From Gemmatimonadota bacterium (GTDB lineage: Bacteria > Gemmatimonadota > Gemmatimonadetes > Gemmatimonadales > Gemmatimonadaceae): a DNA stretch of 64,000 nt. Below are positions 46,412-64,000 of the stretch, in pieces. How positions within the stretch are numbered: position 1 is the stretch's first letter; each line of letters opens with the position of its first letter. The DNA lies in contig JAJTGR010000019.1 of assembly GCA_021299375.1 (NCBI GenBank), forward strand, positions 1 through 64,000, written 5' to 3'. The position numbers and the translations under genes are program-made. The notes beneath the pieces are model-generated. The model was given only the letters and a program-made list of their open reading frames with translations. It had not been told where the DNA came from and did not search any database.

Positions 46412-46733
46412 TGAAAACGTGACGCACTCCTGATGAATGGGAAGGATCGGGCGGTGTCGGGTCGGCGCCAGCTGCAGCGCCGGGGCCCGGGGAGGGGAAC
46501 CGCCGCCCGTCGAGTGCAGCGCAGTCCGGACATGGTCGGGACGGGCATGGGACGGACCGCCCGGCCGTTACCGATCCGTTGCGCGACTCGGCCCTCGATC
46601 AACTCCCGAAGCGCCCGTTCGGTTGCCATGCTATTCGGCCGGTCCTAGCTTCCACCGGGTTTTCTGCGGCGAGCCCGCAGGAATCCGGTCGCTGTCGCGC
46701 CACTCTTTCGTCCCCACTCCTCCTCTCGCTCCC
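46412..46733 (+). other. Gene-free leader upstream of the TonB-dependent receptor
   Basis: No coding sequence is supported. A TTGCCA at 46623-46628 followed by CTAGCT at 46645-46650 (16-bp spacer) is the only promoter-like pair and is weak. It would leave a leader of about 75 nt. Confidence 0.3.
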
Positions 46734-49700
46734 ATGCGTCTTTTTCGTTGGGTCAGCCTCGCCCTCGTCGCCGGTCTCGCGCTGGCCGCGCCGGACCGGC
46801 TCCGTGCCCAGGGCACCACGACGGGTGCCGTCACCGGACTGGTGACGGATGCCCGCACCACCAGCCCCGTCGCCGGGGCGTCCGTCGAAGTCGTCAATCG
46901 CGCCAACGGCGCCCGGGCCTCGCTGGTCACCCGCGACAACGGGCGCTTCTTCATTCCGAACCTCGAGGTCGGCTCGTACACCGTGACGGTGCGCCGCATC
47001 GGCTTTGCCTCCCAGACTCGCGCCGATGTCATTGTCAGCCTCACGCAGACCACCCGGGTCGACTTCACGCTGACGGAGCAGGCGGTGACGCTGGCCGGAG
47101 TCGAGACGCGGGCGGCGGCGGCCACGGCCGACTTCGCGCCCACGCGGACCGGCGCCCAGACGGTCGTCTCCGATACGCTGGTCCGTCGCCTGCCGACGCT
47201 GAACCGCGACGTGTCGGACCTCATTCGCAACACGCCGCAAGTGAACGTTTCCACCACCGGCCGCATCTCGGCGGCCGGCCAGAACAATCGGTTCAACAAC
47301 ATCCAGATCGACGGCGTCTCGCTGGCCAATCGCTTCGGCCTCGGTGACTCCCCCACGGTTGGCGCCCAGGTGGGCGGCCGCGCCCTGCCGCTCGACGCCA
47401 TCAAGGAGTTCCAGGTCCTGCTGTCGCCGTACGACGTGCGCCAGGGCAACTTCACCGGCGCGCTGGTGAACGCCGTCACCCAGTCGGGCACCAACGAGTT
47501 CAAGGGCTCGGCGTTCCTGTACTACCGGGACCAGCAGATGGGCGCGGATACGGCGTTCCTGCGCAACCAGCCGTTCCTGCGGCGCCAGCTCGGCTTCACG
47601 CTTGGTGGCCCGATCCTCAAGGACAAGCTGCGCTTCTTCGCGAGCGTCGAGACCAGCCAGCAGATCGCGCCGTCGTCGGGGCCGTTCTACGACCCGGCCT
47701 CGCCCACGGGGCTCCAGAATTCGCCGGTCGCCACCGCCCGCATCACGGCGGCCCAGATCGACTCGTTCACGACGAGGCTGTCGGGCCTTGGCGTCAACGC
47801 CGGCAACGCCGGCCTGCAAACGAACGAAAACCCGCTGCTCAATACCTTCCTCCGTCTGGACTACCAGATCTCGGACAAGCACCGCCTGGTACTGCGCAAC
47901 ATCTTCAATGACCAGACGGCGTATGACTTCTCCCGCTCGCTCGGGACGTTCAACTTCACGTCGAACGGTTTCGAGCGGACGGAGACATCGAACCAGGTCG
48001 TGGCGCAGGTCTTCTCGAATTTCAGCAACGGGTTCTCCAACGAGTTCACGCTCGGCCTGACCAACACGCGCTTCAAGCGCAATCCCGATGTGCTCGCCCC
48101 ACAGGTGCTGGTGCAGAACATCGGTGGCACCGGCAGCGGCATCGGCTTCCGCGCCGGCACCGAAAACAGCTCGCAGGGGAATGAGCTGCGGGAAGACCTC
48201 ATCGAGATCCAGAACAACTTCACCATGCCGCTCGGCAACCACCTGGTGTCGATCGGCACGCGCAACGAGATCTACACGGTCAACAACGCGTTCCTGCAGA
48301 ACTCGTACGGCAATTACACGTACAACACGCTGGCCGACTTCGTGGCCGGCCGGCCGGCCGCGTCGTTCTCCGGCTCGGGAAGCCTTGGGGGGGATGTGGC
48401 CGCCCAGTTCACGGCCGCCCAGCTCGCCGCCTACATCCAGGACCAGTGGTCGATCACGCCCCGTCTGACGGCCACCTACGGCCTGCGCGTGGACGTGCCG
48501 GTGTTCTTCGACACCCCGTCGGAATCGCCGAACGTGCTGCGCGACTTCGGGCGCAACACCAGCGACCTGCCCTCCGGAAACATTCAGTGGTCGCCGCGCC
48601 TCGGCTTCAACTGGGATATCACCGGTGACCAGAAGAACCAGCTGCGCGGTGGCGCGGGCCTCTTCCAGGGCATCCCGGCGTATGTGTGGATGTCCAACCA
48701 GTTCCAGAACACGGGCGTTGGCCTCGGCCAGATCACCTGCGGCGGCGCCGTGGCCGCCACGAACGGCGCCTCGCCGGCGTTCAACCCGAGTCCGGTGTCG
48801 CCGCGCAGCTGCGGCCCGCGCACGAATGGCCAGCCGGGGCGTAGCCTCGATGACGGGTCGCTGGTGGGCACGGTGAACCTCGCCCAGCCCAACCTCAGAT
48901 TCCCGCAGTTGCTGCGCGCGACCTTCGGCTACGACCGGAAGCTGCCGGGCAACGTGATCGCGACGGTCGAGGGCCTGTACTCGCGGAGCATCAACAACTT
49001 CTTCTACACGAACATCAACGTGTCGCAGAACGAGCGCATCGATGCGCAGGGTCGCACCGTGTTCAACCCGATCGCGGCCACGGGCATCCCGACCATCACG
49101 CCGCGCTTCCCGGTGTACGGCCAGAACGTCATCGACCTCTCCAACCAGAGTCGCGACTACTCCTACAGTGCCACCAGCCAGCTCCGCAAGCGCTTCGAAG
49201 GCGGCTTCGAGGGCGGCGTGGCGTATACCTACAGCCGCAGCTTCGCGGTCACGGACCTCACGTCGTCGGTGGCGTTCTCCAATTGGCAGTTCGGCCGCAT
49301 CTACTCGGGCCCGCAGTCGGAGCAGCGCCTGAACGCCTCGGTGTTCGACCAGCCGCACCGCCTGCTCATCAACGGCACGTACACGGCGCCGTGGAAGAGC
49401 AACCAGACGATCGTTACCTTCTACTTCAACCGCCAGTCGGGTACTCCGTACGCGTTCGTGTACACGGGCAACGCGGGCCGTGGCGACATGAACGGCGACG
49501 GCTCGAACGCCAACGATCCGATCTACATCCCGACGGGCGTGAGCGACCCGAAGCTGCAGTTCGTGAACACGACCGTTGGCGGCCAGACGCTCACGGCGGC
49601 CCAGCAGGCGGCGAGCTTCGACGCCTTCATCAACGACAATCCGTGCCTCGCCAAGCAGCGTGGCCAGATCATGGCCCCGACCTCGTGCCGCAACCCGATG

Positions 49701-49997
49701 TTCGATCGGTTCGACGTGACCATCGAGCAGCAGCTGCCCTCGGTGACGAGCGAGCGCGTGACGATGCGCCTTGACATCTTCAACTTCGCGAACCTGCTGA
49801 ACCGGCGGTGGGGCAAGGTGCGGTCGGCCAGCGGCTTCGGCAATGCGAACCTGCTGCAGGTCCAGTCCATGTCGAGCGCCGATGCCGCCACCCAGGTGCC
49901 GGTCGTGACGTTCGCAAACACCTTCAACCCGCAGTTCGTCCCGCTGAACTTCACGCAGTTCTATCAGATCCAGGCGAGCCTTCGACTGGCGTTCTGA
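46734..49997 (+). CDS. TonB-dependent outer membrane receptor with N-terminal carboxypeptidase-regulatory domain
   Basis: The 1087-residue protein has a signal peptide (MRLFRWVSLALVAGLALAAP, cleavage near RAQG), then an Ig-like CarboxypepD_reg domain (about 26-110: GLVTDARTTSPVAGASVEVV, RFFIPNLEVGSYTVTVRRIG). A plug domain follows (TLNRDVSDLIRNTPQVNVST, IQIDGVSLANRFGLGD), then a large beta-barrel ending in an aromatic residue (QASLRLAF). This is the Oar/SusC-like architecture common in this phylum. Ligand unknown; no SusD-like partner is adjacent. Start ATG 46734 gives a proper signal peptide. Confidence 0.92.
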   Translation: MRLFRWVSLALVAGLALAAPDRLRAQGTTTGAVTGLVTDARTTSPVAGASVEVVNRANGARASLVTRDNGRFFIPNLEVGSYTVTVRRIGFASQTRADVIVSLTQTTRVDFTLTEQAVTLAGVETRAAAATADFAPTRTGAQTVVSDTLVRRLPTLNRDVSDLIRNTPQVNVSTTGRISAAGQNNRFNNIQIDGVSLANRFGLGDSPTVGAQVGGRALPLDAIKEFQVLLSPYDVRQGNFTGALVNAVTQSGTNEFKGSAFLYYRDQQMGADTAFLRNQPFLRRQLGFTLGGPILKDKLRFFASVETSQQIAPSSGPFYDPASPTGLQNSPVATARITAAQIDSFTTRLSGLGVNAGNAGLQTNENPLLNTFLRLDYQISDKHRLVLRNIFNDQTAYDFSRSLGTFNFTSNGFERTETSNQVVAQVFSNFSNGFSNEFTLGLTNTRFKRNPDVLAPQVLVQNIGGTGSGIGFRAGTENSSQGNELREDLIEIQNNFTMPLGNHLVSIGTRNEIYTVNNAFLQNSYGNYTYNTLADFVAGRPAASFSGSGSLGGDVAAQFTAAQLAAYIQDQWSITPRLTATYGLRVDVPVFFDTPSESPNVLRDFGRNTSDLPSGNIQWSPRLGFNWDITGDQKNQLRGGAGLFQGIPAYVWMSNQFQNTGVGLGQITCGGAVAATNGASPAFNPSPVSPRSCGPRTNGQPGRSLDDGSLVGTVNLAQPNLRFPQLLRATFGYDRKLPGNVIATVEGLYSRSINNFFYTNINVSQNERIDAQGRTVFNPIAATGIPTITPRFPVYGQNVIDLSNQSRDYSYSATSQLRKRFEGGFEGGVAYTYSRSFAVTDLTSSVAFSNWQFGRIYSGPQSEQRLNASVFDQPHRLLINGTYTAPWKSNQTIVTFYFNRQSGTPYAFVYTGNAGRGDMNGDGSNANDPIYIPTGVSDPKLQFVNTTVGGQTLTAAQQAASFDAFINDNPCLAKQRGQIMAPTSCRNPMFDRFDVTIEQQLPSVTSERVTMRLDIFNFANLLNRRWGKVRSASGFGNANLLQVQSMSSADAATQVPVVTFANTFNPQFVPLNFTQFYQIQASLRLAF

Positions 49998-50676: not shown

Positions 50677-51564
50677 TCAAAACACCTTGAGGTTGATGTA
50701 CCGCCGCGGGTTCTTCTTCAGGTCCGCCATCAGCGAATCCGCCCGCAGCAGCAGCGTATCCAGTCGCGCGTATACGGCCGGGTCATTCATGAACCGGCCG
50801 ACCGTGCCGTTGCCGCTCGAGACCTTGGTCATGAGCCCCTGCACTTGTTCGTTCGTGGTCCGCAGTTCGCGCGTCAGTGCTTCGAGGCTCGCCGTCGTTG
50901 CCTGCACGTTCCTGGCGGTCGAGTCGACCTTCGCCGAGTCCACGCTCGCCAGCGTCCTGCGCAGCTGCTCCTGGGTCCGCGACAGCTCGGTGGACTGCTG
51001 CTTCACCACCTCGCTCAACTGCACCACCAGTTTCGACACGTCGGCGACGGTCTGTCGCACGTCTTTCATGCCACCGTCGGTCACGAACCGTGCGCGCGTC
51101 TCGTCGGTCAGGGCGAGCACGCTGGCCGCAATGGAGTCGCCTTTCGAAAGCAGGTCGGCCGTGCCCGGTGTCCCCTTGCCGACCGCGATCGTATCGCCCT
51201 TGGCCATGTACCGGTCACGCCCCTTCTCCGGCGTGAGCGCGATCAGCTGGTCGCCAAAGATCCCGTTCGGCTGCACGGAGGCCGTGGTGCCCTGGGGAAT
51301 CTGGTACTGCTGCTGCACCTGCAGGGTCACGGTGATCGTACCATCGGGGATCAGCTCCACGTGGTCCACGAACCCCACCTGCACCCCGGCCAGCAACACC
51401 GGCTGGCCCGGCTTGAGCCCCGCGCCCCACGGAAAGCGGGCATACATCGGATAGCCCTTCGAGAGCCCGCCCCGGGCGATCCAGATGGTCCCCCCCAGAC
51501 CAATCGCAATGGAGAGCATGAGGAGCAGGCCCACCAGCAGTTCGTCGCGTCGTTTCGTCGTCAT
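50677..51564 (-). CDS. mlaD: MlaD/MCE-domain lipid-transport protein
   Basis: The 295-residue protein has one N-terminal TM helix (about 10-30, VGLLLMLSIAIGLGGTIWIA) and an MCE domain (about 38-120: FPWGAGLKPGQPVLLAGVQV, VQPNGIFGDQLIAL). A long coiled-coil tail follows (ADVSKLVVQLSEVVKQQSTE ...) ending in ADLKKNPRRYINLKVF. MCE proteins form periplasmic hexameric rings that pass phospholipids between membranes. ATG 51564. It lies downstream of mlaE in the same operon. The ATPase MlaF is not adjacent. Confidence 0.92.
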   Translation of the reverse strand: MTTKRRDELLVGLLLMLSIAIGLGGTIWIARGGLSKGYPMYARFPWGAGLKPGQPVLLAGVQVGFVDHVELIPDGTITVTLQVQQQYQIPQGTTASVQPNGIFGDQLIALTPEKGRDRYMAKGDTIAVGKGTPGTADLLSKGDSIAASVLALTDETRARFVTDGGMKDVRQTVADVSKLVVQLSEVVKQQSTELSRTQEQLRRTLASVDSAKVDSTARNVQATTASLEALTRELRTTNEQVQGLMTKVSSGNGTVGRFMNDPAVYARLDTLLLRADSLMADLKKNPRRYINLKVF

Positions 51565-51583
51565 GACTGGAATGATGCAGGCC

Positions 51584-52363
51584 TCAGGCCTGGATGAAGG
51601 GAGCAAACACCGCCGCCACGATGGCATCGAGCACGAGGATCGCCACCGAGGCAATGACCACCGCCTGCGCGGTCGACCGGCCGACACCCTCGGCACCGGC
51701 TTCGGTCACATAGCCCTGATAGGCGCACACGAAGGCGATGGCGGCGCCGAAACAGAACGCCTTGATCATCGAGTACACGACCTGAAAGCTCGTGAAGGCC
51801 AGGCGCAGCCCGCTGAGGAAGTCGTCCGTCCGCACGTCGGTGGCCAGCACCAGCGTGGCCCAGGCGCTGAAGATCGCCGTCGCGTTGGCGAGCATCACCA
51901 GCGCGGGCAGCATCACCAGCCCCGCCAGCAGCCGCGGCAGCGCCAGGTACGCCACGGGGTCGAACGACAGCGTCTCGAGCGCGTCGATCTGCTCCGTCAC
52001 CCGCATGGTACCGATCTCCGCCGTCATGCGGGCTCCCACGCGCCCCGTCAGCACCAGCGCCGTGAGCAGGGGCCCCAGTTCGAGCACGATGCTCTGACGG
52101 GCAATCAGGCCCACCACCGACAGCTGGACGCCGGGGAACAGCTGGTAGCGCGTCTGGAACGCCGTGACCCCACCGAGGAAGGCGGCGACGATGACCGTGA
52201 GCGGCACCGACTCCACGCCCATGCGCTGCATCTGCCGGATCGTTTCCGGAAGCCAGGTCGTCAGGTCCCGCACACCGCGCGCGATGTCGCGGGCGAAGTA
52301 CGCGCGTGCCCCGAACGCGCGCAGGACCTCGCCGATCTGGCGGTTGGCAAGGCGCAATATCAT
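51584..52363 (-). CDS. mlaE: MlaE-family ABC lipid permease
   Basis: The 259-residue protein has five or six TM helices and the MlaE/DUF140 pattern: VPLTVIVAAFLGGVTAFQTR, ELGPLLTALVLTGRVGARMTAEIGTM(R)VTEQIDALETL, and the C-terminal AVVIASVAILVLDAIVA. It pairs with an MCE protein and a separate ATPase to move phospholipids. ATG 52363 overlaps the lptG stop by 4 nt. The ATG further upstream would sit inside lptG. Confidence 0.94.
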   Translation of the reverse strand: MILRLANRQIGEVLRAFGARAYFARDIARGVRDLTTWLPETIRQMQRMGVESVPLTVIVAAFLGGVTAFQTRYQLFPGVQLSVVGLIARQSIVLELGPLLTALVLTGRVGARMTAEIGTMRVTEQIDALETLSFDPVAYLALPRLLAGLVMLPALVMLANATAIFSAWATLVLATDVRTDDFLSGLRLAFTSFQVVYSMIKAFCFGAAIAFVCAYQGYVTEAGAEGVGRSTAQAVVIASVAILVLDAIVAAVFAPFIQA

Positions 52364-53445
52364 GTCCGTACGCGGGCCAGGAGGAAGATGGCGAAGAGCC
52401 CCACGAGGATGTTGGGCATCCACGCGGCCAGTTCCGGCGACATGATCCCCTTGCCGCCGATGGCCTTGGTGAGCTGAATGAGCACGAGAAAAAGTATCGT
52501 GGTGGCCAGACTCACGGCGATCCCGTACGCCGCCCCGCCACGCTGTGAACTCGTGGCCAGCGGGGCACCGAAGAGCGCAATGATGAGGCAGGTCACGGGG
52601 ATGGCGAGTTTGAGCATCCGCTCCACCTTGAGCGTGTTCACCTCGGCGCCCGACCGTTCGAGGATACCGATGAAGCGCGTGAGCTCGGCGAAGCGCATTT
52701 CGCTGGGCTCCCGCTCGCTCGCCCGCAGCTCCTGCGGCGTCTCACGGAGGTCGCGGTCCACCAGCGAGTCGAAGGTGAAGACGAGATCCGCCGTGCGGCT
52801 CGGGATGACGTGCAGCACGCCCGACTGCAGCATCCACCCGCGATCGGCGCGCCACTCGCCGCGCGTACTGGCCAGGAGCATGCCCGGCTGCCTGGCCGAT
52901 GCACGCTTCTCGATTTCGAGGTTGTCCACGTACCGGTTGCGCACGTTGAGCGTGTAGATGCGATAGACGCGCCCCGCCTCGCTGGCGAAGGCGAAGTTGT
53001 AGCGGTCGTCGTCGCGCGAGTTGTTGGGGCCGGCCAGCAGCTTGAGGCGTTCGGCATTGGCCGGCGGGGCCACCTCGCTGAACACGAGATCGAGCCCCAT
53101 GGCGAGCGTCGCCATCACGATGATCGGGGCAATGAAGCGGTAGAAGCTGATGCCCGAGGCCTTGGCGGCCGTGATCTCGGAGTAACGCGTGAACGTGCCA
53201 ATGGAAAAGACCGTGGCGAACAGCACGGCGGCCGGCAGCACCATGAACAACGTGTCCGGAATCCAGTACAGGTAGCTGAGCGCGACGGCCTTGATGGTGA
53301 GCTTCCGCTCGGTGTACTTGCGGAGGTTGTCCACGAGGTCGATCACGAACACCAGCACCGGGAAGCCCATGATCGTGACGCCGAAGATGCGCGTGAACTC
53401 GCTGGCGATGTAGCGATCGAGTGGCGTGATGAACCTGCGGCTCAC
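52360..53445 (-). CDS. lptG: LPS-export ABC permease LptG
   Basis: The 361-residue YjgP/YjgQ-family protein has three N-terminal and three C-terminal TM helices around a periplasmic jellyroll domain (about 135-265). The start is SRRFITPLDRYIASEFTRIF; FSIGTFTRYSEITAAKASGI is the coupling region and IIALFGAPLATSSQRGG lies in the C-terminal block. With LptF and the ATPase LptB (not here) it extracts lipopolysaccharide from the inner membrane. GTG 53445 overlaps the lptF stop. Confidence 0.95.
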   Translation of the reverse strand: MSRRFITPLDRYIASEFTRIFGVTIMGFPVLVFVIDLVDNLRKYTERKLTIKAVALSYLYWIPDTLFMVLPAAVLFATVFSIGTFTRYSEITAAKASGISFYRFIAPIIVMATLAMGLDLVFSEVAPPANAERLKLLAGPNNSRDDDRYNFAFASEAGRVYRIYTLNVRNRYVDNLEIEKRASARQPGMLLASTRGEWRADRGWMLQSGVLHVIPSRTADLVFTFDSLVDRDLRETPQELRASEREPSEMRFAELTRFIGILERSGAEVNTLKVERMLKLAIPVTCLIIALFGAPLATSSQRGGAAYGIAVSLATTILFLVLIQLTKAIGGKGIMSPELAAWMPNILVGLFAIFLLARVRT

Positions 53446-55160
53446 GCGGGCTCCGCCGTGACAACCGGCGCCTTCGCCAGCAGCGTGCGCGCCTGACGGT
53501 CGGCCCACCAGTCGCGCAGGCCCCCGCCGCGCGAGGCGTCCGTCGTGGATTCCACGCGCCAGAGCAGCAGGAGGCCGGCCAGGGTGAAGATCACGTTGGC
53601 GATCCACATCGCGACGTAGGCGGGCAGGCGACCCTTGTCGGCCAGGGCCTCGCCGCCCATCAGGCACACATAGTACAACCCGAAGACGACGATGCTCACG
53701 CCGATCGTCGCGCCCACACCGCCTCTGGGGAATCGCAGGGCAATCGGCGGCCCGAAGAGCACGAACACCAGGCAGGCGAACGACAGCGCGAACTTCTTGT
53801 GGATCTCGACGGCGAGGCTGTCGAGCCCCTCACGGGCGGCGATCAGCTGGTTCCCCGCCGCCGAGACGGCCGACTTGTAGACGGACATGGTATCGATAGT
53901 GGCCGTCGGCGCCGCCTGCTGGGCCGCCACCTGTGTGTTCGGGTCGATGCCGGCGGCCCGCAGCGTCGAGTCTTGCTCGAACGTGAGCCCGGGAGCCGGT
54001 GTGTAGCTGCCCCGCGGGAGGACCGTGATGCCACTGGGCGGTGCCGGCGGCGGGACCGCGGGTTGCCCTACGACCGGGGTCCCGGACGCGGCCGCCAGGC
54101 CGGTATCCTTGGGGACGCGTGCCGAATCCGCGGCCACCGGCGGTTGCACCGGCGGTGGCACCGGTGGTTGCGCCTTTGCCTTCTTCGGCAGCACCAGCGA
54201 CGCGACGCCGCCCAGCAATCGGTCGCAGTAGAAGGCCGCCAGCACCTCGGTGCGCGGCCGCTCGCGTGGCACGCGAATGCGCCGCTGTCCAGGCCCCGCG
54301 ATCCGCCGCGAGGCGGAGATGTACTCCTGCCGGATGCGCTCGACCTCAACGGCATCGGCCCGGTACCGCCGATGCATCTCGCACACCGTCATCTCGCGGT
54401 CGCCCTTGTAGCTGTCCGATTCGGAGGTCTCGAAGCCACGGGCGATGCCCTTCTGGCGCACCGTCTGGGTCAGGAAATAGCTGCGCTGCAGGCGCTTCGC
54501 GTCTCCCCGCACGAACTCCTGGGCAAATCCGTCGAACAGCTGGATGATCATGTCCTGCCCGTTCGAGTCGAGGGCGATGATGCCGCTGTCGGCGTAAATC
54601 GTCTTGCGCTCCGGCCCGCGTGACAGGTCGTAGATCACCACGTCGTAGATGCGGTTCGTCTCGGCGTTCACCCGCGCCACTCGCATGAAGAACTGGTCGG
54701 TCACCGGGTTGAGCACCTGCTCGCGCAGTGCGACCGTGGGCTTGGTACGGGTAATGTCCTGTTGAAGGATGCGCAGGCGGTGGTTGGACGCCGGGAGCAC
54801 CTGGTCGTTGAACCAGACCATGACCAACGACACGAGCAACGCGCAGGCGAGGACGGGAGCCATCAGCGTCCGCACCCGCACCCCGTTGGCCTTGAAGGCG
54901 GTGATCTCGTGCTCGGCCGCCAGGCGCCCGAAGGCGAACAGCGTCGCCATCAGCACGGCCATCGGCATGGTCATGGCCACGGTGAAGGGCAGGGACAGCA
55001 CGAAGAACTTGCCGATCGCCGACCACGGCAACCCCTTGCCGGCCAGGTTGGCCAGCTGCCGGGCCACGTACTGCAGCATCAGCAGTGACGTCAGCGCCGA
55101 CAGGGCGAACACGAGCGGACCCACGTGCTCGCGGATGATATAGCGGGTAAGGAGCTTCAC
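53442..55160 (-). CDS. lptF: LPS-export ABC permease LptF with a large periplasmic insertion
   Basis: The 572 residues exceed the roughly 360 of typical LptF. The N-terminal three TM helices (KLLTRYIIREHVGPLVFALS, FGRLAAEHEITAFKANGVRV) and the C-terminal block (FALSFACLVFVLFGPPIALR, FPRGGVGATIG) are canonical. Between them the jellyroll is followed by extra sequence (about 270-450), including a Pro/Ala-rich part at about 331-390. No ATG fits; GTG 55160 is used. It is the first gene of lptF-lptG-mlaE-mlaD and divergent from sprA. Confidence 0.93.
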   Translation of the reverse strand: MKLLTRYIIREHVGPLVFALSALTSLLMLQYVARQLANLAGKGLPWSAIGKFFVLSLPFTVAMTMPMAVLMATLFAFGRLAAEHEITAFKANGVRVRTLMAPVLACALLVSLVMVWFNDQVLPASNHRLRILQQDITRTKPTVALREQVLNPVTDQFFMRVARVNAETNRIYDVVIYDLSRGPERKTIYADSGIIALDSNGQDMIIQLFDGFAQEFVRGDAKRLQRSYFLTQTVRQKGIARGFETSESDSYKGDREMTVCEMHRRYRADAVEVERIRQEYISASRRIAGPGQRRIRVPRERPRTEVLAAFYCDRLLGGVASLVLPKKAKAQPPVPPPVQPPVAADSARVPKDTGLAAASGTPVVGQPAVPPPAPPSGITVLPRGSYTPAPGLTFEQDSTLRAAGIDPNTQVAAQQAAPTATIDTMSVYKSAVSAAGNQLIAAREGLDSLAVEIHKKFALSFACLVFVLFGPPIALRFPRGGVGATIGVSIVVFGLYYVCLMGGEALADKGRLPAYVAMWIANVIFTLAGLLLLWRVESTTDASRGGGLRDWWADRQARTLLAKAPVVTAEPA

Positions 55161-55351
55161 GACATAAATTCCCCGCAGTCCACCCGCTTTATCAAGGGCG
55201 CACCGACGTTGATGTTGAAGGAATGCGCCCGCAGTTTGCGACCGTACCCCGGCCCCTTGGGCTCTTGCCCCACGGGCCTTCGCTGCTACCCCACGACCGG
55301 AGTTCGGTGCGCAGGCTGCTCCAGACATGGGTAGGCGTGGCGGCCGGGGGC

Positions 55352-58300
55352 ATGCGCCGTGCGGCGCTGTCGGTGACGGTGGCGCTGGCGGTGGTCGGCC
55401 TTCCTTCTCCTGGCGCCGCCCTGTGGGCACAGGAGGTGACGGGACGGCCCGCCGGCTCCCTCGCGGACGTCCGGCACCGGATCGACTCACTCGTCCTGCG
55501 TCGGCCCGCCGTCCTTGGCGCACTGGGGCGCTCCCTCCTCACGCGCCCCGATCCGGCCGCCATGGCCGAGCGGGCCGTCCGCGACGCCGAGCGCCTCCGC
55601 GCCAGCCGGCTCCGCCGCGACTGGCAGCGCACGGTCCAACGGAGCTTTCTCCGCCCGGAAGCGGCGGAGGCGCAAGTGGCGGTGACACCGGCCACCCCCC
55701 CGGTGGACTCCGGCCCGACCCCCGGGGCGCTAGTTCCGCTGGCACCCACCCGCCGCGCCACCGGCGATCCGGCCCAAGCCGCCACCGACTTCCTGAACGA
55801 AATCGGGGACCTCGGCATTTCGCTCAACGCCCGGCTCGAGTCCAAGGTCCAGCGCAGCCGCAACGAACGGTGTACGGCGGCCCAGCTCACGATCATCGGC
55901 AACAACTGCTTCGGTATCTTCCAGCCGGCCTTCGACTTCCAGTTCAACGTGCGCACCGGCGGCGTGGTGGCCGACCGCGTGTTCGTGAACGTCGACTACG
56001 ACTCGCAGCGCGAGTTCGACGCCTCCAACAACATCTCGGTCCGCTACCAGGGCAAGACCGACGAGATCCTGCAGACGCTCGAAGTCGGCAACGTCACCTT
56101 CCAGCCGCCGGCCTCCCGGTACCTCACGTCGGGCATCCCGTCGGGAAACTACGGGGTCCAGGCCACCGGGCAGATCGGTCCCATGCGCTTCACGTCCATC
56201 GTGGCCCAACAGCGGGGCAACGTCTCCAAGGACAACGTCTTCACGGTCGGGGAGCGCACGCAGCAGCAGGTCGACCGCGTCATCGAGGATATCCAGGTCG
56301 AAACCCGCCGCTTCTTCTTCACCATCGATCCCCGCCGGCTGCGCGGCTATCCCAACATCGACCTGCTCAACCGGCAGCAGATGCAGCAGCTGGCGGCCGC
56401 GCTCCCCGACTCCGTCCGGCCCGCCCGCATCTACCTGTACCGACAGCTCGTCGGCGCCGCCAACCAGAATCCGCGTGGCCCGCAGTTCTCCGTGCGTGGG
56501 GCCCGCAACCCGGCGCGCCAGATCTACGAAGTGCTGCGCGAGAATGTCGACTACTACCTCGACCCCTCGGGGCTCTGGCTGGTGCTCGTGCGCCCGCTCA
56601 ATCTCAACAACGAACGCCTCGCCATCGCCTACGAGGTGAACGTCAACGGCCAGCCCGGGCGCAACGTGAACACGGGCGGTACCCCCGACATCGAGTTCAC
56701 CGCCGAGCCGCAGTTCGCCAACCTGCTTTGGGAGCCGGAGCTCCAGCCCACCAATCCCGAGTACTTCCTGCGCGAGATCAAGTCCGTCTACCGCCTTGGC
56801 GGCGAGGACCTGCAGCGGGAATCGCTCAAACTCCGGCTCGTCACTGGCACCTCGGGCGACCAGGAAAAGCCCATCGATCCGTCGCGGGGCGAGACCTACC
56901 TGCAGCTGTTCGGGCTGTCGCAGGCCACGAACCCGGCCATCTTCGACGTGGAAAACCGCGTCTGGCCGCGCCCCAACGACCCGAACTTCCGCGCCAGCTT
57001 CTCGGGGGCGAGCGGTCAGCAGAAGCTCATCCCCGACTACTTCGTGGTGTACCCGTCGCTGCAGCCGTTCGCCCGCGCCGGCCTCGCGCAGCCGGCCGCC
57101 AATCCGGCCAACGACACGCTCTACCGCTTCCCCAACGAGTACCTGTACTCGGCGCAGCGCCCGCAGGCCATCTATCGCATGATCGCCAGCTATCAGTCGG
57201 AGGGCGGGGGAGGCAGCCAGTCCATCAAGCTCGCCTCCATCCAGCTGCGCCCCAACTCGGAGCGTGTCGTCATCGACGGGCGCGAACTGATCAAGGATAC
57301 CGACTACACCATCGACTACGATCTCGGCCTCATCAACTTCAGTCGCCCCGACACCCTGTTCGCGCGCCCGCGCCAGGTGTCGGTGCGCTACGAGGAGAAC
57401 CCGCTCTTCGCGGCGGCGCCCACCACCATTCTCGGCTTCGCATCGCAGTTCCCCCTCGACAACGGACAGCTGAGCTTCACCGCCATCTCCCAGACCCAGC
57501 GCTCGGCCCTCACTCGGCCGCCGCTCGGCTTCGAACCGGTGGGGTCGCTCGTGGCCGGCGTCACCGGCAACCTGGCGTGGGACGCCAGTGCGCTCACCAA
57601 CGCGCTCTCGCGGCTCCCGTTCACCCAGACCACCACGCGGTCGCGCATCGCGCTGCAGGGCGAGTTCGCCCTGAGCAAGCCGCAGCCCAACTCGGCGGGG
57701 CAAGCCTACATCGAGTCGTTCGAGGGGGAGGCCGAGCGCCCCATCTCGCTCGCCGAGGCCGCGTGGTACTACAGTTCGCGCCCCGCGCTCGGCACCGCGC
57801 TCGGATCGACCGGCACCAGCGTCTTCTCGCTCAACCGGGCGGCGACGCTCGCCTACCAGAGCAATGGCGTGGACGCCGCCGGCAACTACATCCAGTTCAA
57901 CATCCAGCAGATCGACCCGGCCGTGCGCATCGTCGGCGGCGGCGTACAGCCCGCCGAGCAGCTGCTGTGGATGACGCTCTATCCGCTGCGGACCGGCGGC
58001 ATCTTCGACTTCGAGCCCGGGTCGCCGCAGCGGCGCTTCGCCTGGACCGTGGGCAACAGCAGCAGCCTGGGCACGACGCCGAGTGGGCGGCGGTGGCGGT
58101 CCCTGCGCACGGTGCTCAATCCCAGCGGCGCCGATCTCTCGCGCATCGAGAACATCGAGTTCTTCGTGCTCGTGCAGTCGGAGGCGAGCAAGGTCCGACG
58201 CAATCCCACGCTGGTCTTCGACTTCGGCGACATCAGCGAGAACAGCGTCACCTTCGCGCCGGAGACACTCACCGTGAACGCCCCCGTGCGCGCCGGGCTG

Positions 58301-61300
58301 CCGGTGGACAGTACCTATCGCGGCAAGCGCCTCGTGGGCTACGAACGACTCGACAGTGAGCGCGACCCGCTCTCCCGGGCGTTCAACGCGGTGGAGAACG
58401 ATCGTGGCCTGGCCGGCGATGTGGTGGACACGCTGGTGGTGGTGGATCGTACGGGCGCCGCCCCAGTGACACGCCGCGCCCAGAACGTCCTGCTCTGCAC
58501 CCAGTCGGTGCAGGTGGTGCAGGTGCTCGGGGACAGTCGGGCCAACTGCACGGCGCGCAACAATCGCCTCGACGAAGAGGACATCGACCTCGATGGCCAG
58601 CTCAACCTCCCGTCGAGCGCCATCGAGCAGGAACAGATCAAGCGCTTCGTGGTGGACCTGAGCGACCGGCGCAACTGGACCCGCGTCGGTCGCTGCTACC
58701 GGCAGCAGGATTCCACGGCCGCGGGCGTGCAGAGCGACTCGCTCTGCTGGGTGCAGGTCAGACTCAATTGGCGTGCCCCGAGTGACGAGCAGAACAACCC
58801 CAACGATCGACGCATGCGGGCCTTGCGCATGACCATGGTCTCGGGAATACAGGCGGCCGACGACGACTTCACCCGCATTGCGCTGGCTCGTTTTCGCCTC
58901 GTGGGCGCGCCGTGGCTCAAGCGTGGCAACGAGCCGCTCTCCGGCATGGCGGGTGACTCCAGTGGCACCGTGGGCGGCTACGTCGTCGCAAGCGTCGTCG
59001 GGACGCTCGACTCGACGGCCGCGTTGCCCTACTCGGCGCCACCCGGCGTCGTGGAAGCGCCGGAGAATCGCCAATCGGGCTACGAGAACACGCGTATCCA
59101 GGTGAACGAGCGCGCGCTGCGGCTGCAGGCCGGCCTTCCCGGCCGGCAGTTCCGCCCCTTCGATCGGGCCGAAGCGTTCTTCCGTTTCCCCGAGGGCACC
59201 AAGACCTTCATGGGCTATCGCACCCTGCGCCTGTGGATGCGCGGCCGCGGCAACGGCTGGGGCGAGCAGGGCGAGCTCAATGGCTATGTCAAGATCGGGC
59301 GCGACGAGCACAACTTCTACATGTACCGCACGCCGGTGAACACCGGCGAAAGCCAGAGTGCGTGGCTCCCCGAAGTGCGCGTCGACCTTACCCGCTTTCA
59401 GGCGCTCCGCGCCCAGCTGGAGAATGCCTTCCTCACCGGGAGTGCCGACTCCGTGCAGTGCACGGGCCCCGACCTCGCCCTCATCCGCCGCTCCGGGGCA
59501 CCACGCGGCCTGGCCGTGCGGCGCTTTGCCGTCTGCCAGGACGGCTACATCGTCTACAGCGCCGACCCGGCGGTGACACCACCCAATCTGGCCGGCGTGC
59601 AGGAGCTGGCGGTTGGTTTCGTCCGCATCGACAGCGTGCCGCGCAGTGGCTCGGCGATCATGAACGGCGACACGCTCGAGCTGTGGGTGAACGATGTGCG
59701 CCTCACCGATGTCGTCGACGATGTGGGCTTTGCCGGCGAACTCGGCGTGAGCATGAACGCCGGTGACCTCGCCGACTTCCGGCTCAACCTCAGTCGTCGT
59801 GACCCGAACTTTCGGCAACTCAACGAAACCCCCTCGTTCCTGACCACCAGCGGGGTGAGCTTCGGGACCACGCTGCATCTCGACCGCATGTTGCCGGCGA
59901 AGCTGGGCATCGCCTTGCCCTTCAGCGTGGACTATGCGGGCTCCGGCGTCGATCAGCTGTTCGTCAACCGCACCGATGTGCGCGCCAGCGGCATCGATGG
60001 CTTGCGCGACCCACGCGACCGGCGCGTGAACTATGCGCTGGCGCTGCGGCGGGTTCAGCCCCTCACCTCGGGGTGGTATGCGCCGCTCGTGAACGGCCTC
60101 GCCTTCAACGGGACCTGGTCGACGGCCGGCTCGCAGAGCGCCTTCCAGGAGCAGGCCAGCAGCAGCTATGCCATCGGGGGCGGCCTCACCATCGCCGACG
60201 ATCGCCGCGAAAGCCCGCTGCCCCGCTTCATCAGCGGCCTGCTCGACCTGTTGCCGCGGCGCCTGCGTGAATCGCAGGCGGTGGCGGGACTGCGTCAGCA
60301 GAAGTTCCGGTGGCGCCCCACGCAGTTCCGCCTCAGCAGCTCGTTGGCCCGGACCTCCAACTCCACCACCTCCTTCACCAAGGCGGCGGCGTCGCCCACC
60401 GACACGGGGCAGGTGGCCAGCGGCCTGACCCACTTCTGGCAGAACAGCGGCACCCTGGAGTTCCGCCCCACGCTCGGGTTTTCAGCCGTCATGAACGCGC
60501 GGCAGCTGCTCGACCTGCGCGATTACCGCAGCAGTGCGTTCGCGCCCGACAGTACCGACCGTGGGCAGGCGGCCCAGGCCGAACGGTTGGCGGTGCTCGG
60601 CAGAAGCCTCGGGCTCGAGCGGGAGCGGTCACTCACGTCGGCCGTGCTCTTCCAGCCCTCGGTATCGCCATGGGTGCGGCCGCGCGTGGACTTCACCAGC
60701 TCCTTCACGCTCAGCAAGGACCCGAACGCTCGCGCCTTGCTGCGGGCGCAGGACACCACCGGTGCCTTCCGCCTGCCGCAGCGACTCGGTGCGGCGCAGT
60801 CGCTCAACCTCGGCACCACCGTCGACCTCGGCCGGTTCATCGCCACCCGCACCGGGGACAAGAGTCGCCTGCGCCGCTTCGGCAACACCTTCGCGCCCAT
60901 CGACGTGCAGTGGCAACAGAGCCTGACGTCGAACTACGACAACACCGCCTACATCCCCGGCTTCGGATACCAGCTCGGGCTTGGCGGCGTGGACGCATTC
61001 CGCGGCCTCAACAGCCGCCTCGCCACCACCGCCGGACGGTTGCGCCGAGCCTCGGCGGTGGGGTCGCTCAATCTGCCGTTTTCGCTCAACGTGCAGTCGC
61101 GCATCGAAAACGGCACCACCGAGACGTGGACCCGCCGAACGCTCGACGGGTTTCAGGCGGTCATCACCAGTACCCAGCTCGTGCGCCCCGACTACACGGT
61201 GCGCTGGAGCTGGCGCCCGGTCCGCCTGCGCAAGGTCATCAGCCTGCTCAACGTGAACGGCCGATACGTGGTCACCGAGCAGGAAACCACGATCCCCAAC

Positions 61301-61819
61301 GAAACCGGCGGCCTGGCCGACCGCAGCCGGCAGATTGCCCGCAGCCAGCCGCTCTCGGCGGCCATTACGTGGACGTTCCTGGGGAATCTCACGACCAACA
61401 CGTCGTTCGATCGCCAGCGGCGCGAGGACCTCCGACCCGGCGCCGTCACCACCGGTGAGACGCGCCGGCAGTCGTTCGATGTGGGGCGTACCTTCCGCCT
61501 GCCCAAGAAGTGGAACACGCGCAACGGGCAGCTGCGCGCCAACCTGTCCTATCAGAGCGAAGAAACCTCGTCCATTGTGGCCGGTTCCACGGTCACCGAC
61601 CTGCTCGGGAACGTCACGACCACGGAACCCGCCGTCCTGACCGCCAACGGTCGGCGGGCGTTCAACATCAATGCCAACACCGACCTGTCGGATCTGCTCA
61701 CCTTCACGCTGACCGGCAGCCGGGTGGTGAACTTCGACCGCAACTTCAACCGGCAGACGTCCAACATCATCCTCTCGGCCGTGCTGCAGTTGCGCTTTTT
61801 CGCCGGCGATTTGCGGTAA
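55352..61819 (+). CDS. sprA: SprA-like giant outer-membrane/cell-surface protein
   Basis: The 2155 residues (2198 if ATG 55223 is used) match the size and layout of SprA. It has a signal peptide (RRAALSVTVALAVVGLPSPG, then ALWAQE), an N-terminal SprA domain (NFLNE-type LNEIGDLGISLNARLESKVQ, QPAFDFQFNVRTGGVVADRV, then ISVRYQGKTDEILQTLEVGN), many beta-strand blocks, and a beta-rich C-terminus closing LSAVLQLRFFAGDLR. In Bacteroidetes SprA is the 36-strand outer-membrane translocon of the type IX secretion system and is needed for gliding. No PorV, PorN or GldKLMN genes are in the window. The start at 55352 was chosen from the signal peptide. Confidence 0.85.
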   Translation: MRRAALSVTVALAVVGLPSPGAALWAQEVTGRPAGSLADVRHRIDSLVLRRPAVLGALGRSLLTRPDPAAMAERAVRDAERLRASRLRRDWQRTVQRSFLRPEAAEAQVAVTPATPPVDSGPTPGALVPLAPTRRATGDPAQAATDFLNEIGDLGISLNARLESKVQRSRNERCTAAQLTIIGNNCFGIFQPAFDFQFNVRTGGVVADRVFVNVDYDSQREFDASNNISVRYQGKTDEILQTLEVGNVTFQPPASRYLTSGIPSGNYGVQATGQIGPMRFTSIVAQQRGNVSKDNVFTVGERTQQQVDRVIEDIQVETRRFFFTIDPRRLRGYPNIDLLNRQQMQQLAAALPDSVRPARIYLYRQLVGAANQNPRGPQFSVRGARNPARQIYEVLRENVDYYLDPSGLWLVLVRPLNLNNERLAIAYEVNVNGQPGRNVNTGGTPDIEFTAEPQFANLLWEPELQPTNPEYFLREIKSVYRLGGEDLQRESLKLRLVTGTSGDQEKPIDPSRGETYLQLFGLSQATNPAIFDVENRVWPRPNDPNFRASFSGASGQQKLIPDYFVVYPSLQPFARAGLAQPAANPANDTLYRFPNEYLYSAQRPQAIYRMIASYQSEGGGGSQSIKLASIQLRPNSERVVIDGRELIKDTDYTIDYDLGLINFSRPDTLFARPRQVSVRYEENPLFAAAPTTILGFASQFPLDNGQLSFTAISQTQRSALTRPPLGFEPVGSLVAGVTGNLAWDASALTNALSRLPFTQTTTRSRIALQGEFALSKPQPNSAGQAYIESFEGEAERPISLAEAAWYYSSRPALGTALGSTGTSVFSLNRAATLAYQSNGVDAAGNYIQFNIQQIDPAVRIVGGGVQPAEQLLWMTLYPLRTGGIFDFEPGSPQRRFAWTVGNSSSLGTTPSGRRWRSLRTVLNPSGADLSRIENIEFFVLVQSEASKVRRNPTLVFDFGDISENSVTFAPETLTVNAPVRAGLPVDSTYRGKRLVGYERLDSERDPLSRAFNAVENDRGLAGDVVDTLVVVDRTGAAPVTRRAQNVLLCTQSVQVVQVLGDSRANCTARNNRLDEEDIDLDGQLNLPSSAIEQEQIKRFVVDLSDRRNWTRVGRCYRQQDSTAAGVQSDSLCWVQVRLNWRAPSDEQNNPNDRRMRALRMTMVSGIQAADDDFTRIALARFRLVGAPWLKRGNEPLSGMAGDSSGTVGGYVVASVVGTLDSTAALPYSAPPGVVEAPENRQSGYENTRIQVNERALRLQAGLPGRQFRPFDRAEAFFRFPEGTKTFMGYRTLRLWMRGRGNGWGEQGELNGYVKIGRDEHNFYMYRTPVNTGESQSAWLPEVRVDLTRFQALRAQLENAFLTGSADSVQCTGPDLALIRRSGAPRGLAVRRFAVCQDGYIVYSADPAVTPPNLAGVQELAVGFVRIDSVPRSGSAIMNGDTLELWVNDVRLTDVVDDVGFAGELGVSMNAGDLADFRLNLSRRDPNFRQLNETPSFLTTSGVSFGTTLHLDRMLPAKLGIALPFSVDYAGSGVDQLFVNRTDVRASGIDGLRDPRDRRVNYALALRRVQPLTSGWYAPLVNGLAFNGTWSTAGSQSAFQEQASSSYAIGGGLTIADDRRESPLPRFISGLLDLLPRRLRESQAVAGLRQQKFRWRPTQFRLSSSLARTSNSTTSFTKAAASPTDTGQVASGLTHFWQNSGTLEFRPTLGFSAVMNARQLLDLRDYRSSAFAPDSTDRGQAAQAERLAVLGRSLGLERERSLTSAVLFQPSVSPWVRPRVDFTSSFTLSKDPNARALLRAQDTTGAFRLPQRLGAAQSLNLGTTVDLGRFIATRTGDKSRLRRFGNTFAPIDVQWQQSLTSNYDNTAYIPGFGYQLGLGGVDAFRGLNSRLATTAGRLRRASAVGSLNLPFSLNVQSRIENGTTETWTRRTLDGFQAVITSTQLVRPDYTVRWSWRPVRLRKVISLLNVNGRYVVTEQETTIPNETGGLADRSRQIARSQPLSAAITWTFLGNLTTNTSFDRQRREDLRPGAVTTGETRRQSFDVGRTFRLPKKWNTRNGQLRANLSYQSEETSSIVAGSTVTDLLGNVTTTEPAVLTANGRRAFNINANTDLSDLLTFTLTGSRVVNFDRNFNRQTSNIILSAVLQLRFFAGDLR

Positions 61820-61910: not shown

Positions 61911-62498
61911 ATGGCCACCCGTGATGAGCGCCGAGCGCTGGGGTTCCTGGCGGTAGTCGCCCTGCTCGGGGCGGCGGTGCGCACCGTCGGGGTGCAGCGG
62001 TTCGAGGCCGAGACCTTTGGCCTGGTGCCGCCCACGCGTCGGGCGGCACGTGCGGCGGGGCATGAAGCGGGGCGTGATGCGGCGCTCGCCGACCGGGCCC
62101 TCGCGGCGCAGATCGCCGCGATCGACTCCGTACGGGCCGCGCCCAGGCGGTCACGCTCCGGCAAGGCGCGGAAACCATCGGGCGCATCAAGCCGGCCGCC
62201 CGGCAAGCCGACACTCCGCCGTGGGGCCGGTCCGTCCGAACCACTCGATATCAACGCCGCCAGCACCGGCGATCTCGAACGGCTGCCGCGGATCGGCCCG
62301 GCGCTCGCCCGGCGCATCGTCGCCTGGCGGGACGAGCATGGCCCGTTCGCTTCCCTCGACGAGCTGCGTCGGGTGCGAGGCATCGGGCCCTCCACCCTTC
62401 GCCTGCTGGAACCACTGGTGACGTTTTCCGGGGGGCACCGTCCCTTGCTCAGAGAGGGTACGGCGCCCTCGCTGTCCCCCCTCTGCACTGTCCACTGA
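61911..62498 (+). CDS. ComEA-like helix-hairpin-helix protein
   Basis: The 195-residue protein has an N-terminal TM helix (about 8-24, RALGFLAVVALLGAAVRTVG), a basic/Ala-rich linker, and a double helix-hairpin-helix DNA-binding domain at about 112-170 (DINAASTGDLERLPRIGPAL, GPFASLDELRRVRGIGPSTL). ComEA binds incoming DNA in the periplasm during natural transformation. The neighbouring PilB-type ATPase gene supports a DNA-uptake or type IV pilus setting. The C-terminal tail after about residue 172 is not part of the domain. Confidence 0.85.
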   Translation: MATRDERRALGFLAVVALLGAAVRTVGVQRFEAETFGLVPPTRRAARAAGHEAGRDAALADRALAAQIAAIDSVRAAPRRSRSGKARKPSGASSRPPGKPTLRRGAGPSEPLDINAASTGDLERLPRIGPALARRIVAWRDEHGPFASLDELRRVRGIGPSTLRLLEPLVTFSGGHRPLLREGTAPSLSPLCTVH

Positions 62499-62514
62499 CT
62501 CGACACCGCTGGCA

Positions 62515-64000
62515 ATGGCTGCTCCTGCTGCACCGCTCTCCGGCCGGTTGACCGAACGGCTTGGGGATCTCCTCGTCCAGGAAGGACTGCTCACCCGGGA
62601 AGGCCTCGCCAAGGCACTGAAGGAGCAGGACGCCAATCCTGGCCAACGGCTCGGCCTCATCATCGTCAAGATGGGGCTTGTGCCGGAGACGGCGGTGGTG
62701 CGCCTGCTGGCGCGGCAATTCCGGATGCCGGCCGTCGACCTCTCGCGTTTCGAGGCCGATCCCCGCCTCCTCAAGCTCATCCCGGCGGACCTTGCGACGA
62801 AGCACACCGTACTGCCGCTCAAGCGGGACGGCCGCTCGCTGACCGTCGCCATCGCCGACCCGACGTCCATGTCGGTGATCGACGACCTCAAGTTCATCAC
62901 GCGCTACGACATCATCCCCGTGCTCGCCGGGGAGTACTCGATGCGCACGGCCATCGAGAAGCACTACGAGGCCAACGAGACCCACATCCAGAGCCTCCTG
63001 CAGGACATCGCCGGTGAGGACGACGATGTGGAGGTGCTCGAAAACCCGGAGGACACGACCGATGTCAACGTCCTCGCGGCACAGGTCGATGAAGCGCCGG
63101 TCGTCAAGCTGATCAACGCCATTCTGGTGGATGCCGTGACCAAGGGGGCCTCGGACATTCACTTCGAGTGCTTCGAGCACGAGCTGCGGGTGCGCTACCG
63201 CATCGACGGGGCGCTGGTCGAGGTCATGAAGCCGCCCATGAAGATGCGCGCCGCCCTCATCTCGCGCTTCAAGATCATGTCCTCGCTCAACATTGCCGAG
63301 CGCCGCGTGCCGCAGGACGGCCGCATCAAGCTCAAGGTGGGCAAGAAGGTCGTGGACTTCCGCGTGAGCTCGTTGCCCACGCTGTTTGGCGAGAAGGTCG
63401 TGCTGCGCATTCTCGACAAGGGCAACCTCACGCTCGACCTCGACAAGTTCGGCATCGAGCCGCGCGCCGAGCGCGAGCTGATGGAGGCCATTTCGAATCC
63501 CTACGGGATGGTGCTGGTCACCGGGCCGACCGGCTCCGGCAAGACCACCACGCTCTACTCGGCGCTCTCCAAGATCAACACCGGCGACACGAACATCATG
63601 ACCGCCGAGGATCCCGTCGAGTACAACCTGTTCGGGATCAACCAGGTGCAGGTACGCAACGAAATCGGCATGACGTTCGCGGCGGCGCTGAAGGCGTTCC
63701 TGCGGCAGGATCCCAACGTCATCATGGTCGGCGAAATCCGCGACATCGAGACGGGCGGCATCGCCATCAAGGCCGCGCTCACCGGCCACATGGTCATGAG
63801 CACCCTGCACACGAACTCGGCCCCGGAGACCATCACCCGTCTCCTCGACATGGGTCTCGAGCCATTCAACGTGGCATCGGCGCTCAACCTCATCCTCGCC
63901 CAGCGCCTCGTGCGTCGCGTCTGCCCCAAGTGCAAGGTCAAGTACACCCCCGACGCCGCCGAATTGGCCGGTGCCAAGGTGAAGGCCGAGACCACCCTGC
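62515..64000 (+). CDS. pilB: Type IV pilus assembly / type II secretion ATPase PilB/GspE, 3' end missing
   Basis: At least 495 residues; the frame is open at the window end. The N-terminal MshEN/GspE_N domain (RLGDLLVQEGLLTREGLAKA) is followed by a linker and the AAA-like secretion ATPase. Motifs: KGASDIHFE, Walker A GPTGSGKTTT (K343), Asp box (MTAEDPVEY), Walker B NVIMVGEIRD, His box (TGHMVMSTLHTN) and the start of the zinc motif CPKCKVKY. It powers pilus extension or pseudopilus assembly from the cytoplasm. ATG 62515, 16 nt after comEA. PilB against GspE cannot be settled without downstream genes. Confidence 0.93.
   Translation, partial: MAAPAAPLSGRLTERLGDLLVQEGLLTREGLAKALKEQDANPGQRLGLIIVKMGLVPETAVVRLLARQFRMPAVDLSRFEADPRLLKLIPADLATKHTVLPLKRDGRSLTVAIADPTSMSVIDDLKFITRYDIIPVLAGEYSMRTAIEKHYEANETHIQSLLQDIAGEDDDVEVLENPEDTTDVNVLAAQVDEAPVVKLINAILVDAVTKGASDIHFECFEHELRVRYRIDGALVEVMKPPMKMRAALISRFKIMSSLNIAERRVPQDGRIKLKVGKKVVDFRVSSLPTLFGEKVVLRILDKGNLTLDLDKFGIEPRAERELMEAISNPYGMVLVTGPTGSGKTTTLYSALSKINTGDTNIMTAEDPVEYNLFGINQVQVRNEIGMTFAAALKAFLRQDPNVIMVGEIRDIETGGIAIKAALTGHMVMSTLHTNSAPETITRLLDMGLEPFNVASALNLILAQRLVRRVCPKCKVKYTPDAAELAGAKVKAETTL

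Follow-up and report, generated by a model that had tools for sequence, protein, structure and literature searches.

In the type IX secretion system (T9SS) of Flavobacterium johnsoniae and Porphyromonas gingivalis, Sec-exported cargo proteins carry an immunoglobulin-like C-terminal sorting domain (CTD) and are handled by the outer-membrane translocon SprA (Sov) and the carrier PorV. Structures from F. johnsoniae have the CTD bound to PorV on SprA, with GldLM power extracting the PorV-cargo complex, and the energy-requiring step of Flavobacterium type IX transport is this release of carrier and cargo, driven by GldLM (PMC10994853). In a 2016 survey, complete T9SSs were confined to Bacteroidetes (PMC4793230), and SprA and possible T9SSs in other phyla of the Fibrobacteres-Chlorobi-Bacteroidetes (FCB) superphylum, including Gemmatimonadetes, are mentioned in PMC11285876 and PMC12611786. 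Here we analysed a stretch of 64,000 nucleotides from a Gemmatimonas-type bacterium of the Gemmatimonadota (contig JAJTGR010000019.1; hereafter the window, to which coordinates without a contig label refer) that contains a sprA gene. A first-pass annotation had singled this gene out as a translocon outside Bacteroidetes; the occurrence is real, but those mentions mean that it is not new. What is new is what accompanies SprA: a gene cassette, a CTD cargo, and a motor, ring and sortase that go undetected. We found no description of a motor-less SprA-PorV-CTD system, or of a cassette joining a TonB-dependent receptor (TBDR), a CTD protein and PorV, in a literature search made without subscription papers and preprints.

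Compared with the T9SS of F. johnsoniae and P. gingivalis, the Gemmatimonadota system has homologous SprA/Sov, PorV and CTD-bearing Sec-exported cargo, but GldL, GldM, GldN and PorU are undetected, there are one or few cargoes rather than dozens, each cargo has an adjacent PorV and TonB receptor, and sprA lies beside lptFG. T9SS-like sets of Ignavibacteria, Neomarinimicrobiota and other FCB phyla are similar in having SprA with GldM and GldN not found, whereas their SprA falls in a separate clade. As with the carrier-specific substrates of F. johnsoniae, which use PorV or alternative shuttles (PMC12618676, PMC10994853), a carrier would recognise the cargo CTD; in the present case, however, the carrier gene adjoins each cargo gene, and the GldLM that powers release in F. 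johnsoniae (PMC10994853) is undetected. We therefore class this system as a reduced variant rather than a T9SS, because it would work like the T9SS core while motor, ring and sortase are not found. Our assessment, held with good confidence, is that the window gene codes for the outer-membrane translocon in a reduced T9SS consisting of SprA, PorV and CTD cargo, in which GldLM, GldN and PorU take no part.

An intact sprA gene of the Gemmatimonadota clade

The SprA-like protein of about 2.1 kresidues annotated at 55352-61819 is borne out: the open reading frame (ORF) is uninterrupted, its 2155-aa product ends at 61819, and against TIGR04189 (surface_SprA) it scores 1155 bits (curated cut-off 200, E-value printed as 0), covering profile positions 129-1979 and the C-terminal stretch 2083-2317. 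The mechanically called ORF opens upstream at ATG 55223, and the signal-peptide start MRRAALSVTVALAVVGLPSPGAALWAQEV is ATG 55352, the start given by the first-pass annotation. The codon-position bias in guanine and cytosine is the highest in the window. With phmmer the protein matches the solved F. johnsoniae SprA (6h3i) at 5e-27, and a profile made from twelve Gemmatimonadota SprAs matches the 6h3i SprA chain at 1e-107 over residues 438-1898. Judged by these sequence matches, it is a genuine member of the SprA/Sov family, and the only one in the genome (4.48 Mb, 96% complete, 116 contigs).

In the SprA tree the Gemmatimonadota proteins form one clade with the window SprA inside, for which reason we rejected a recent transfer from Bacteroidota. 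Gemmatimonadaceae account for the closest named SprA loci, and nearly every named crown locus is from Gemmatimonadota. Consistent with the earlier remark that no other T9SS gene is close, none was identified within the window using Pfam and NCBIfam models.

A receptor, CTD protein and PorV cassette in the same genome

The PorV/PorQ family has one match over cut-off in this genome (C70:20943-21917), which reaches 124 bits against NF033709 (cut-off 90) and thus supplies a PorV-type carrier. A profile of the cassette PorV matches F. johnsoniae PorV (6h3i_F) at 3e-8, and the top Foldseek match of its structural model, which is of moderate quality (predicted local distance difference test, pLDDT, 65), is PorV in the SprA-PorV-RemA CTD complex 8gl6. 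This porV lies 4 bp behind the gene for a secreted protein of 1453 aa, itself 14 bp behind the gene for a TBDR with a carboxypeptidase-regulatory-like domain.

While the 1453-aa protein has no match in Pfam or NCBIfam, its C-terminal end reads 'VVPNPYLV...IYSVSGQ...SGLYLFVL...GKFVIIR', and from this end in sixteen loci we built a lineage-specific CTD profile. The two best PDB sequence matches of the profile are the CTDs of PorU (6za2 1085-1153, E 0.003) and PorZ (5m11 704-758, E 0.009). Foldseek likewise ranks PorZ and PorU first for the AlphaFold model of the domain (pLDDT 88), and the best structural alignments (VIA) are to PorZ (Z 12.1), PorU (Z 10.7) and the translocon-bound NucA CTD (Z 9.0). 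The end of this protein is a T9SS-type sorting domain, recognised by the lineage-specific profile and by fold and missed by the curated TIGR04183, for which the C70 cargo stays below threshold. Standard CTD models thus miss these Gemmatimonadota cargoes. A match over the TIGR04183 cut-off on contig C88 (searched at E<=10) was rejected as cargo, as it lies inside a Sortilin/BNR-repeat protein and not at the C-terminus. Another protein, about 760-870 aa long and ending in a weak CTD-like C-terminus (24-28 bit), was seen at L105:5738-8020 (G000:C109), G037:C1:3901446 and G046:C113 (L119), and is possibly an additional cargo.

The first-pass annotation had proposed a type IX-like secretion system, to be checked with profile hidden Markov models (HMMs), and took an absence of all other T9SS parts and substrates to point to a different function for SprA. 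Such an absence is not what we found, as PorV, over its cut-off, and a CTD cargo are both in the genome. The core of the proposal is supported, but the system is not a canonical T9SS: the searches for GldL, GldM, GldN and PorU detected nothing, and TIGR04183 yielded only the misplaced BNR-repeat domain.

CTD and PorV follow SprA across the phylum

In a sample of 150 genomes of the phylum, SprA was found in 107 and not in the other 43. CTDs, counted with a CTD-only profile search (an earlier cargo search scored only three candidates per genome), occur in 43/107 genomes with SprA versus 0/43 without (Fisher 4e-8; this and other statistics on the sample are uncorrected for relatedness). A PorV match at E<=1e-26 was obtained in 83 SprA-positive genomes and in no SprA-negative genome. 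The f7 genomes that lack SprA gave PorV-family matches of 1e-10 to 1e-14, too weak to be included in the PorV count.

The order TBDR - CTD protein - PorV recurs in the genome's own genus, in g10 of the same family, and in families f2, f4, f5, f8 and f9, which amounts to six families. The receptor gene is directly upstream of the CTD gene in all 20 loci with upstream DNA, and PorV is downstream in 21 of 21, once loci in which the simple gene caller failed are resolved by a genome search. The distance between cassette and sprA is 15-25 kb in several f2/f3 genomes. Of 41 strong CTD proteins in the early-branching family f9, at least 35 are directly followed by PorV. The genomes of this family (G001, G003, G005, G007) each have 10-24 CTD matches, and most of the strong matches come with a PorV of their own, an expansion that recalls SusCD pairs.

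This distribution also bears on whether SprA is kept for building the envelope, through lipopolysaccharide (LPS), lipids or outer-membrane proteins, and not for secretion, the CTD cassette being a later add-on in some lineages. Such a role would agree with the retention of SprA in 64 genomes without detected CTD cargo, with the divergent arrangement of sprA and lptFG at every Gemmatimonadota locus that has upstream DNA, and with the presence of porV also in a housekeeping cluster that holds Era, PrfB, LysS and LolCE/LolD-like genes. The restriction of CTDs to genomes with SprA argues against it, as does the joint absence of SprA and PorV, a dedicated T9SS carrier, in several genera. Moreover, the f9 genomes combine their numerous CTDs with PorU, and secretion is therefore the likely ancestral role. 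We consider an envelope-building SprA improbable.

Searches for motor, ring and sortase

GldL was over cut-off in none of 29 genomes; weak matches (E 0.008-0.9) were rejected, since most of them fall in long frames of unrelated content and this search also gives hits in 9 of the 14 named control genomes. For GldM and for the ring protein GldN, 0/26 Gemmatimonadota and 5/5 true Bacteroidota controls were positive. Both were also negative in three Ignavibacteria, one Neomarinimicrobiota and two metagenome-assembled genomes labelled Bacteroidetes, and PF12081 had no match in the window's own genome. The PorU sortase was not found over cut-off in this genome or its crown relatives, and is present in f9 at 580-586 bits. 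In the two assemblies labelled Bacteroidetes (L228 and L229; G155 and G156), SprA groups with Ignavibacteria, and they are probably mislabelled or early-branching.

At two f9 loci (L072, L073) the PorU gene sits between era and porV, and the same site in crown genomes reads era, porV and a similar next gene (judged by eye) with no PorU. This difference is most simply explained by a loss of PorU in the crown while PorV stayed. We rejected the identification of this housekeeping PorV as the PorV-like BamG, since PorV/PorQ models score far higher and BamG does not turn up among the crown proteins. An uncalled stretch of 5-6 kb upstream of era was set aside as a candidate gene desert and is presumed, from its size and position, to be a ribosomal RNA (rRNA) operon.

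The same site matters for a further alternative, namely that a complete canonical T9SS is present and that its GldLM motor, GldKN ring and sortase have diverged beyond recognition by Bacteroidota models. GldL and GldM are fast-drifting proteins, short or coiled-coil in form, and in related genomes ExbB/ExbD-type motor genes, which belong to the same superfamily as GldLM, lie next to the cassette. Recognition nevertheless succeeded for SprA, for PorV and even for the CTD of PorU, and GldM, GldN and GldL were not found even in f9, where PorU reaches 586 bits. That f9 has Era-PorU-PorV where the crown has Era-PorV indicates that genes were really lost and have not merely drifted. We regard hidden divergence of a complete system as unlikely.

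Phylum-wide, then, the translocon, the carrier and the sorting domain persist with no detectable motor or ring and, outside f9, no detectable sortase. This suggests that SprA, PorV and the CTD are the ancestral core in the FCB superphylum and that GldLMN is a Bacteroidota addition.

A proposed route for cargo through the reduced system

The best reading of these results is a reduced T9SS that exports few surface proteins and is powered by something other than GldLM. In the route that we infer, the cargo, here the 1453-aa protein, would be exported by Sec with its type A-like CTD and enter the SprA channel from the periplasm, where its CTD would be taken up by the PorV encoded directly downstream. 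The PorV-cargo complex would then exit SprA sideways into the outer membrane, which would leave the cargo at the cell surface beside the receptor encoded directly upstream. Because no PorU was detected, the CTD is probably uncleaved, and the cargo would be kept on PorV as its anchor. As SprA, PorV and CTD persist with no detectable motor, either another motor acts or release needs none.

ExbB-ExbD-TonB is a candidate energy source because the corresponding genes (Pfam; Table 1) precede the cassette in f9, as an operon-like run of ExbB, two ExbD and two TonB genes, and in f8, as ExbD and TonB genes. We advance only tentatively, and think it rather doubtful, that this motor in place of GldLM drives release through the upstream-encoded receptor. 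In that case receptor, cargo and PorV would act together as a single surface unit with a purpose comparable to that of SusCD, and SprA would load it. The ExbB, ExbD and TonB genes may equally serve the receptor only.

Several observations weigh against a reduced T9SS. The 64 SprA-positive genomes in which the lineage-specific profile detected no CTD cargo (including G017, G053 and G077) are mostly PorV-positive and include three of the same genus as the window, and SprA may serve another role in them. FadL-type barrels resemble each other, and the PorV assignment draws on sequence models and gene order. The draft genome itself is without the housekeeping porV that its congeners have next to rRNA genes, perhaps owing to an assembly gap there. 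Finally, GldL, GldM and GldN may have diverged so far that the HMMs overlook them, and the negative searches for these and for PorU did not extend to GldK, SprE/PorW, PorD/PorE, Skp, PorP/SprF or type B CTDs (TIGR04131).

The lptFG neighbourhood and flanking genes

The first-pass annotation had also described a short divergent region shared with the LPS-export operon. This region is indeed about 190 bp long, lptF starting at GTG 55160, and the arrangement is conserved across the phylum: lptF is divergent to sprA in 13/13 Gemmatimonadota loci inspected gene by gene and in every one of the 51 named Gemmatimonadota-type loci whose sequence extends upstream of sprA, and the sprA loci without lptF are contig ends. 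Co-regulation of lptF and sprA, the coordination suggested at first, is a guess.

It is quite possible, though somewhat short of probable, that this neighbourhood is inherited gene order without a functional link, a reading that touches the link to LPS export and not the secretion core. Gene order can persist by descent, and a search of the intergenic region for a sigma-70 consensus promoter found none. The pairing is, however, kept at every one of the 51 and 13 loci, over SprA identities down to about 21%, and two Ignavibacteriales-like loci (L228, L236) have a similar order, in which lptFG is divergent and no more than about 2 kb away from the SprA match. The lptFG-sprA pairing was not seen at true Bacteroidota loci.

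Table 1. Features of the sprA locus in the window and motor genes preceding the cassette in related loci
Feature	Position	Strand	Evidence
sprA, T9SS outer-membrane translocon SprA/Sov, 2155 aa, signal peptide	55352..61819	+	TIGR04189 1155 bits; 6h3i profile match; Gemmatimonadota clade
ExbB/ExbD/TonB genes directly upstream of the TBDR-CTD-PorV cassette	L116:13016-16001; L117:13493-15999; L118:178-1321		
lptF-sprA divergent intergenic region, blocks conserved among Gemmatimonas-type loci	55161..55351	.	start codons, alignment
lptF, LPS export permease, divergent sprA partner across the phylum	53442..55160	-	PF03739 E 4.8e-81
lptG, LPS export permease	52360..53445	-	PF03739 6.6e-63; TIGR04408 best NCBIfam model
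MlaE-type lipid ABC permease downstream of lptG (context)	51584..52423	-	PF02405 4.3e-66
MlaD/MCE-type protein (context)	50677..51696	-	PF02470 5.8e-17
ComEA-type helix-hairpin-helix protein after sprA, context conserved across the phylum	61911..62498	+	PF12836 3.2e-19

On the minus strand, lptF, lptG, mlaE and mlaD run together (50677-55160), as they do in the related loci L074-L076 and L078, and this run links genes for LPS export and phospholipid transport. A separate TBDR-like protein with a carboxypeptidase-regulatory domain is encoded at 46437-49997 on the plus strand, and has relatives near sprA in L069 and L075. On the other side (61911-64000), sprA is followed by comEA and pilB/pilT/pilC-like genes, as it is at most of the phylum's loci, and type IV pilus or competence genes thus adjoin the SprA translocon gene.

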